Assembly: GCF_900112985.1 (NCBI RefSeq)
Contig: NZ_FONS01000001.1
Coordinates: forward strand, 245,730-309,729
Length of the DNA stretch: 64,000 nucleotides
Source of the DNA: Pedobacter antarcticus
Lineage (GTDB): Bacteria; Bacteroidota; Bacteroidia; Sphingobacteriales; Sphingobacteriaceae
Reading direction: 5' to 3'
Shown: piece by piece, positions 8,102 through 8,433 of the stretch
How the letters are laid out: the number at the start of each line of letters is the position of its first letter
Numbering within the stretch: the stretch's first letter is position 1
Notes under the pieces: model-generated
The model's input: the letters and a program-made list of their open reading frames with translations, nothing else
Told to the model about the DNA's origin: nothing
The model's database searches: none
Translations under genes and position numbers: made by a program

Positions 8102-8210
8102 TTTATAAAGAAGTGGCGAGAGACAGGCTCCTAGACCCACTGGCAACCCTCCCAAATGGAGAAGGTGCCAATTCCTGACCAGACAGCATATTGCTGATTG
8201 GAAAGATAAA
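8102..8210 (+). ncRNA. SAM-I (S-box) riboswitch
   Basis: The closing helix is TTTAT (8102) with ATAAA (8210). Inside are GGCGAGAGACAGGCTC, GACCCACTGGCAACC, AAGGTGCCAATTCCTG and GAAAGAT, which are the conserved blocks of the SAM-I aptamer in its Bacteroidota form. SAM binding is expected to lower expression of the downstream metY-metX-hom genes. No classical terminator hairpin with a U-run is obvious between the aptamer and metY, so the expression platform is not clear (see the leader ORF). Confidence 0.93.
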
Positions 8211-8219
8211 TTTAGACAA

Positions 8220-8318
8220 ATGAAAATTACAATGCCTCTAGCGCGAATGCGCAAAACTTCTTTAAATATTATTAAGCTTGCTTACGTACACAATTATATG
8301 TGTTGTTGCGCTGAATAA
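8220..8318 (+). CDS. short leader ORF with three consecutive Cys codons, 32 aa
   Basis: ATG 8220 lies 10 bases after the riboswitch closing helix; TAA ends at 8318. The peptide begins MKITMPLARMRKT and ends HNYMCCCAE. The Cys codons TGT TGT TGC are at 8301-8309, three codons before the stop. Two competing RNA pairings are visible: GCGC 8241-8244 with GCGC 8249-8252, or GCGCAA 8249-8254 with TTGCGC 8306-8311, which includes the last Cys codon. A further hairpin (8288-8292 with 8299-8303) also covers the first Cys codon. This layout resembles a cysteine-sensing attenuator upstream of metY, an enzyme of sulfide assimilation. Translation is unproven. Confidence 0.55.
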   Translation: MKITMPLARMRKTSLNIIKLAYVHNYMCCCAE

Positions 8319-8433
8319 TAAATACTAATTCCGACCATTTTTCCCGGAAAGCCTCTGAATGAGGTTCTGATAAGCATGCTTTGCTGTATAAATCACCCTA
8401 CACTTCATTTTACAACCTTAAAAACCCAAATAT

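Follow-up and report, generated by a model that had tools for sequence, protein, structure and literature searches.

A riboswitch and a leader-peptide attenuator are commonly regarded as alternative devices. The closest described relatives of the leader reported here are the Cys leaders of mycobacteria and other actinobacteria, which consist of a short ORF with several Cys codons in a row close to its stop, lack a conserved terminator and have been proposed to act through Rho; they precede the cys operon and cbs, and the available portion of the report mentions no SAM riboswitch (PMC1262725). The mgtA leader of Salmonella and E. coli offers a second parallel, as a leader ORF (the mgtL uORF, with Pro codons) is read there through elongation efficiency in combination with a folding leader RNA. 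However, the inputs in that case are Mg and Pro rather than SAM and Cys, the genes are different ones and, in the accessible part of the source, direct Mg binding is described as unsettled, while a Rho output is reported for Salmonella and was not detected for E. coli (PMC11552253). A uORF acting through Rho at a C>G bubble is reported for copper control in Bordetella (PMC9426467, in excerpt). For Bacteroidota, the transcriptome of Flavobacterium psychrophilum is reported to give strong indications that leader peptides attenuate amino-acid operons (PMC9723704), and a B. thetaiotaomicron map mentions short ORFs in leaders (PMC7366714). Leader peptides in this phylum are already suspected in print. 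The earlier note on this DNA, which was made from the sequence alone, knew of no Cys leader joined to a SAM-I riboswitch; likewise, no description of one was found among the matches listed from the open-licence literature, and the parts seen of PMC3766115, PMC2965389, PMC4833913 and PMC2864571 gave no match to it.

The window analysed here comprises 64,000 nucleotides of Pedobacter antarcticus DNA (contig NZ_FONS01000001.1, positions 245,730 to 309,729), and all features discussed lie on its plus strand. A SAM-I (S-box) riboswitch aptamer occupies positions 8100–8212; it matches RF00162 over the full model length (1–108 of 108) with 71.8 bits, above the curated gathering score of 44.4 bits, and is a full-length member of the family for which SAM binding is predicted. 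The earlier note had placed an ORF directly after the aptamer, which holds, although the gap is a 7-nt spacer (8213–8219) and not the 10 bases given. This leader ORF of 32 codons (8220–8318), MKITMPLARMRKTSLNIIKLAYVHNYMCCCAE, ends in Met-Cys-Cys-Cys-Ala-Glu-stop, with the Cys codons TGT TGT TGC (codons 28–30) at 8301–8309, and its final codons, TGT TGT TGC GCT GAA TAA, stand before metY as had been read. Mycobacterial Cys-leader ORFs, unlike the window leader, are reportedly leaderless, to go by the title of Canestrari 2020. The metY gene (O-acetylhomoserine sulfhydrylase, 8434–9738) is identified by TIGR01326 at 666.6 bits and is followed by metX (homoserine O-acetyltransferase, 9763–10821; TIGR01392, 339.7 bits, below the cutoff of 500), with its start set at ATG 9763 in an ORF that opens at TTG 9745. 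The third gene of the presumed operon (10822–12063), an ORF that looks homoserine-dehydrogenase-like by its sequence, completes the locus. The window's genome contains five RF00162 matches, including this one, and no Cys-rich ORF lies 3′ of the other four. The 32-residue peptide matched no NCBIfam model, and a search of a plasmid collection gave no match. A protein search with the same peptide was discarded: it gave matches at E ≤ 10 in 20 of 41 genomes (its own included), and none of the 25 foreign matches looked leader-like by eye.

Conservation was followed instead through MetY, with 56 matches in 60 genomes of the genus, 40 in 61 of the family, 21 and 72 in 149 and 395 of the class, and 221 in 296 of the phylum, where the loci inspected from other classes numbered 15. 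The DNA upstream of metY was examined in 158 Bacteroidia genomes: 61 of Pedobacter type (an unnamed genus, g1, being counted in by inference from identical leader peptides, for example L063 and L213), 39 from the rest of the family and 58 from 25 other families. A SAM aptamer lies 5′ of metY in 61/61, 31/39 and 35/58 of these, respectively. Near the end of the aptamer, 116 of the 127 SAM-metY leaders (60/61, 28/31 and 28/35) have an ATG-initiated ORF with two or more Cys among its final 12 codons, although in two of them (L159 and L307, among the last 28) it looks like a chance frame; the remaining 11 leaders have no such Cys end. At least three Cys occur in 100 of the 127 (52, 23 and 25 by group), and an overlapping set of named genomes has the Cys leader in 70/74. 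The positives include Pedobacter, Mucilaginibacter, Sphingobacterium, Parapedobacter, Daejeonella and one record named Haliscomenobacter. In the other classes of the phylum, none of nine SAM-metY leaders has a Cys end; nor do four further other-class loci (L313, L318–L320) whose SAM-type aptamer was recognised by Rfam only and which were scored as SAM-less in the main count. To estimate chance, each of 97 leaders was subjected to 200 dinucleotide shuffles and searched for an ORF whose ATG lies no more than 25 nt from the aptamer. At least three Cys among the final 12 codons arose in 0.12% of shuffles against 78/98 real metY leaders, and at least two in 1.2% against 90/98. One leader, L158, comes from the same genome as L146 and was dropped from the shuffle, base-composition and terminator counts. 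The joining of a SAM-I aptamer to a Cys leader before metY is therefore real, conserved far beyond the window and, as shown below, gene-specific.

The peptides themselves diverge, whereas the start position and the Cys-rich end persist. C-terminal ends such as CMCCCIQ, CICMCCCC, CCCCCC and WCMCCCCCCM keep their Cys while the remainder changes. Tandem Cys codons that persist as Cys, in a short ORF upstream of a gene for sulfur assimilation, are a mark of Cys-responsive leader-peptide attenuators, and these leaders carry it. They point to many short genes. A whole-genome search for poly-TGY before a stop, in any frame, gave 319 matches against 88 for a reversed control and was set aside. Cys clusters bind metals, and a Cys-rich nascent peptide could in principle sense metal or redox state. 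The precedent is CruR with its CXXC, reported to act in this way in the excerpt of PMC9426467, but for the present leaders we regard such sensing as highly improbable. In all 92 Cys-bearing rows (one genome, that of L146 and L158, appearing twice) no more than 0–6 residues separate the last Cys from the C terminus, and the ribosome tunnel would therefore be expected to enclose the cluster until synthesis is over. In addition, no fixed Cys spacing motif was seen, and the operon serves sulfide assimilation.

The Cys leader is confined to one kind of gene. Within the family, it was found in 0/56 cases (0/40 and 0/16) behind the SAM aptamers of genes other than these, which by their look include metH, metE and metF; 16 of 73 loci had no match to the metY-derived aptamer profile and were read by their known coordinates. 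Where metX comes first behind a SAM aptamer, the Cys ORF is present in 4/7, and in G016, which gave no MetY match at the threshold used, an aptamer and Cys ORF (both recognised by eye) and three hairpins precede metX. Taken together, these cases indicate that the Cys leader travels with the sulfide-to-homocysteine operon. The suggestion of the earlier note that two signals, SAM and charged tRNA-Cys, are read one after the other is the natural reading of a Cys ORF that is conserved across the class and absent from other SAM leaders.

At the level of codons, both amino acid and RNA appear to be under constraint. The full set contains both Cys codons (258 TGT, 198 TGC), from which it follows that Cys is kept as an amino acid across the class. 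In 21 close leaders of 42 codons, nonsynonymous change stands to synonymous change at a ratio of only 0.64, and the CMCCC codons are invariant even synonymously, whilst the remaining codons vary. The invariance of the Cys block at synonymous sites suggests that RNA constraint contributes as well in Pedobacter.

The Pedobacter leaders share three consecutive hairpins: H0, which takes in the Cys codons; H1 (CUUCC/GGAAG), immediately past the stop; and H2 adjoining it, followed by UACGC. Hairpins were counted in 55 of 59 leaders, L061, L062 and L143 having been left out beforehand and L084 because of a wrongly cut hairpin, and 30 of the 55 entered the covariation alignment. In those 30 sequences, 92.6% of cells are paired, compared with 34–55% for slid versions of the model, which also reach a covariation score of no more than 0.113 where the true alignment has 0.305; neither the pairing nor the covariation was reached by any of 500 shuffles. 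Nine of 18 pairs have changed on both sides, a number reached by 5/500 shuffles; eight of these lie in H0 and H2, with 4/5 pairs of H2 showing such changes. The number of further pair types on the same alignment was reached by 70/500 shuffles. Compared with synonymous recodings, H0 has a mean z of −2.1 or −2.0, depending on the flank, in Pedobacter (n = 59) and of −0.5 or −0.3 in other genera (n = 33), both uncorrected for relatedness. A general hairpin on the Cys codons was accordingly rejected, the synonymous-shuffle support being limited to Pedobacter. In the window, the minimum-energy fold contains a long imperfect hairpin (8267–8320) with the Cys codons in its 3′ arm, possibly the counterpart of H0. 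By the fold and the Pedobacter model, H1 (UUCCG/CGGAA, 8329–8349) is the counterpart of the Pedobacter CUUCC/GGAAG hairpin, and H2 (8350–8366) lies directly 3′ of it.

These hairpins bear on two other explanations. One is that there is no translated ORF and that the TGY-rich stretch is kept purely as RNA structure. The synonymous invariance of the Cys block in the 21 close leaders and the covariation of H0 in Pedobacter would fit, but only a very slim chance can be given to this, with both Cys codons in use, an H0 that is not general, and an ORF that varies from 19 to 55 codons in length while no stop interrupts its frame between the ATG and the one that closely follows the Cys codons. The other keeps the same two sensors, SAM and Cys, and gives them a structural output: H0, H1 and H2 would refold with the position of the ribosome and change metY translation or mRNA stability, rather than acting through Rho. 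The conserved and covarying hairpins speak for this, as does the Pedobacter model, which, among the best 150 candidates per genome, has one match each in 18 of 21 genomes of the genus, 17 beside metY and one before metX. We nevertheless consider a structural output unlikely. The count of further pair types was within reach of the shuffles, and H0 is without synonymous-shuffle support outside Pedobacter. The model found no match among the best 150 candidates of the window's own genome and only a weak one (19.4 bits, E 0.24) when the window was searched directly; among 26 sources searched, L225 alone matched strongly and L232, a record named Pedobacter, did not match at E up to 1. Moreover, the metY ATG lies about 70–160 nt past the leader stop in most leaders, a distance that also makes reinitiation between the leader stop and metY, which was considered, unlikely.

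How the aptamer is connected to its gene differs from the usual SAM-I riboswitch: there is no strong terminator and no excess of sequence complementary to P1, and the leader ORF occupies the place of the expression platform. The mean anti-P1 run is not above that of shuffles in 92 leaders (L158 retained), and a general anti-P1 platform was rejected on this ground; the window's own 5′ P1 strand has an 8-nt anti-P1 run against a shuffle mean of 6.7. No classical SAM platform is seen, since P1-pairing sequence shows no excess. At the stricter threshold, the window leader (L061) contains no intrinsic terminator, and at the looser one a single weak site of −10.5 kcal/mol before UUUGCUGU; thus, no intrinsic terminator of the kind found between leader ORF and gene in trp-type attenuation was detected at the stricter threshold. 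Within the last 250 nt before metY, terminator-like sites at −15 kcal/mol or better occur in 2/91 SAM-linked leaders compared with 10 of 14 chosen SAM-less Cys leaders (two of them, L312 and L317, from another class), and at −9 kcal/mol in 26/91 compared with 12/14. The earlier note was therefore right in seeing neither an obvious terminator nor the usual expression platform. It fared less well with the competing pairings it proposed. The small GCGC/GCGC hairpin within the leader ORF (8241–8252) is part of the minimum-energy fold, and the complementary segments GCGCAA (8249–8254) and UUGCGC (8306–8311) are present, but the fold skips their pairing. The early part of the ORF can pair with the Cys region at −18.0 kcal/mol in the window and −16.8 kcal/mol in its nearest relative, L062; over 59 Pedobacter-type leaders, a leader's own segments average −9.7 kcal/mol and swapped ones −9.9. 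A GCGCAA/UUGCGC switch as a general mechanism was consequently rejected, being confined to the window and this one close relative.

Could the riboswitch and the leader simply be independent, with an SAM platform of unrecognised form acting on metY and the Cys leader serving as a separate attenuator downstream? The two modules do occur apart, as Cys/Met leaders without a SAM aptamer and as SAM aptamers without a Cys leader. Independence nonetheless seems distinctly improbable to us given the narrow spacing between them, the leader ATG lying 5–13 nt past the aptamer end (mode 7) in 94 of the 99 metY leaders tabulated. Two further points count against it. The first is the absence of an anti-P1 excess; the second is L112, which has no leader ORF and where the metY ATG itself stands in the leader's place, 10 nt past the aptamer end, as expected if the aptamer controls initiation. 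Both also support gating of initiation by the aptamer.

We regard it as probable that the metY-metX-hom operon has a two-input leader RNA, in which SAM would gate initiation on the leader ORF and Cys-tRNA its elongation, with Rho as a possible output. The starting points are the observed linkage, position, Cys conservation and gene specificity, the rarity of strong terminators and the covarying hairpins of Pedobacter. With the aptamer only 7 nt before the leader ATG, a SAM-stabilised P1 should block initiation on the leader ORF, which would be translated when SAM is low. The ribosome would then reach the cluster of Cys (and Met) codons just before the stop and, with too little Cys-tRNA, would be predicted to stall there. 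A stalled ribosome may alter the fate of the RNA past the stop in such a way that transcription continues to metY, whereas with enough Cys the ribosome would leave and the operon would be attenuated. The operon would thus be expressed under a simultaneous shortage of SAM and Cys. Both the translation of the leader ORF and the stalling on Cys shortage are predictions from sequence. Weighing against this reading are the nonsynonymous-to-synonymous ratio of only 0.64 with its synonymously invariant Cys block, the SAM-metY leaders that have no Cys end (all of those in other classes among them), the SAM-less loci of the window's family without a Cys ORF, the limitation of H0 support to Pedobacter, and the L171 fold described below. 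For leaders that have no strong terminator, our guess at the output is that Rho ends transcription between the leader stop and metY, where the RNA is C-rich and G-poor. Here the composition is C 0.211 and G 0.128, and C exceeds G in 98% of 91 leaders against 76% of 41 other SAM leaders; the C/G ratio of 1.66, compared with 1.29 in other SAM leaders, is a modest excess. Rho is favoured on the strength of this composition and by analogy with the terminator-less actinobacterial Cys leaders, for which it has been proposed.

Cys-rich leaders also occur within the class in metY loci that have no SAM aptamer. Such loci make up 23 of the 58 loci of other families, where Rfam also found none (or none in a second copy of the same place), and 12 of the 23 have short Cys- or Met/Cys-rich ORFs by a loose criterion applied by eye; in the window's family, such an ORF is present in one of eight SAM-less loci (L093, with two Cys) and absent in the other seven. 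Five SAM-less loci (L167, L171, L327, L338 and L345) each have a pair of Cys/Met-rich leader ORFs in tandem, together with two intrinsic terminators. With Cys/Met codons and strong intrinsic terminators, the anatomy of some of these leaders resembles trp-type attenuation, from which the window leader differs in having no strong terminator and a Cys run that nearly abuts the stop. The strong terminators of the SAM-less Cys/Met leaders suggest that metY is switched on by a lack of Cys. In the whole-leader fold of L171, the segment that follows the Cys codons pairs with the early ORF strand, and by eye it could pair instead with the strand adjoining the terminator; when the RNA not covered by a Cys-stalled ribosome is folded by computation, however, the terminator persists and the alternative pairing does not form. 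Two loci of another class, L312 and L317, likewise have SAM-less metY leader ORFs, with MMQMCMMMCC and a strong terminator.

Met codons are more frequent near the Cys codons in the SAM-less leaders, with 2.55 Met per 12 residues against 1.55 in SAM-linked ones (22 and 91 peptides, uncorrected for relatedness, the 22 having been chosen for their Cys). A narrower choice of 17, which left out five mostly Met-poor peptides (L093, L166, L309 and two from L311), gave 3.12 against 1.53. This is a hint that SAM sensing and Met codons may replace each other. A wider reading, which we hold tentatively and which falls just short of being the probable one, is that the leader peptide serves as the expression platform of the SAM-I riboswitch over much of Bacteroidia. 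SAM would decide whether translation of the leader starts and Cys-tRNA whether it finishes, which amounts to an AND gate; the aptamer-less lineages have more Met codons, in several cases with tandem leaders and terminators, which gives the impression that a riboswitch and Met codons can stand in for each other in sensing one and the same branch. A riboswitch and an attenuator appear to be connected in series here, at a single operon and across much of a class. Such wiring would offer a SAM-riboswitch platform to bacteria that generally make little use of Shine-Dalgarno sequences, and it is made testable by the natural variants: SAM aptamer only, Cys leader only, tandem Cys/Met leaders, and a metY start in the leader's place.

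A few further arrangements were encountered. Three loci (L156, L288 and L289, the latter two named Algoriphagus) have a SAM aptamer and a short ORF without Cys, for example MTIYTPLISPFS.., 9 nt after the aptamer and 51–73 nt before metY; these are perhaps the leader platform minus its Cys sensor. In L001, L034 and L051, SAM aptamers lie about 290–340 nt 5′ of a gene that, by its sequence, presumably encodes a carboxypeptidase-regulatory/TonB-type outer-membrane protein. SAM aptamers also stand 5′ of genes that look peroxiredoxin-like (L058 and L173) or seem to encode a NifS-like cysteine desulfurase (L033, L037 and L193).
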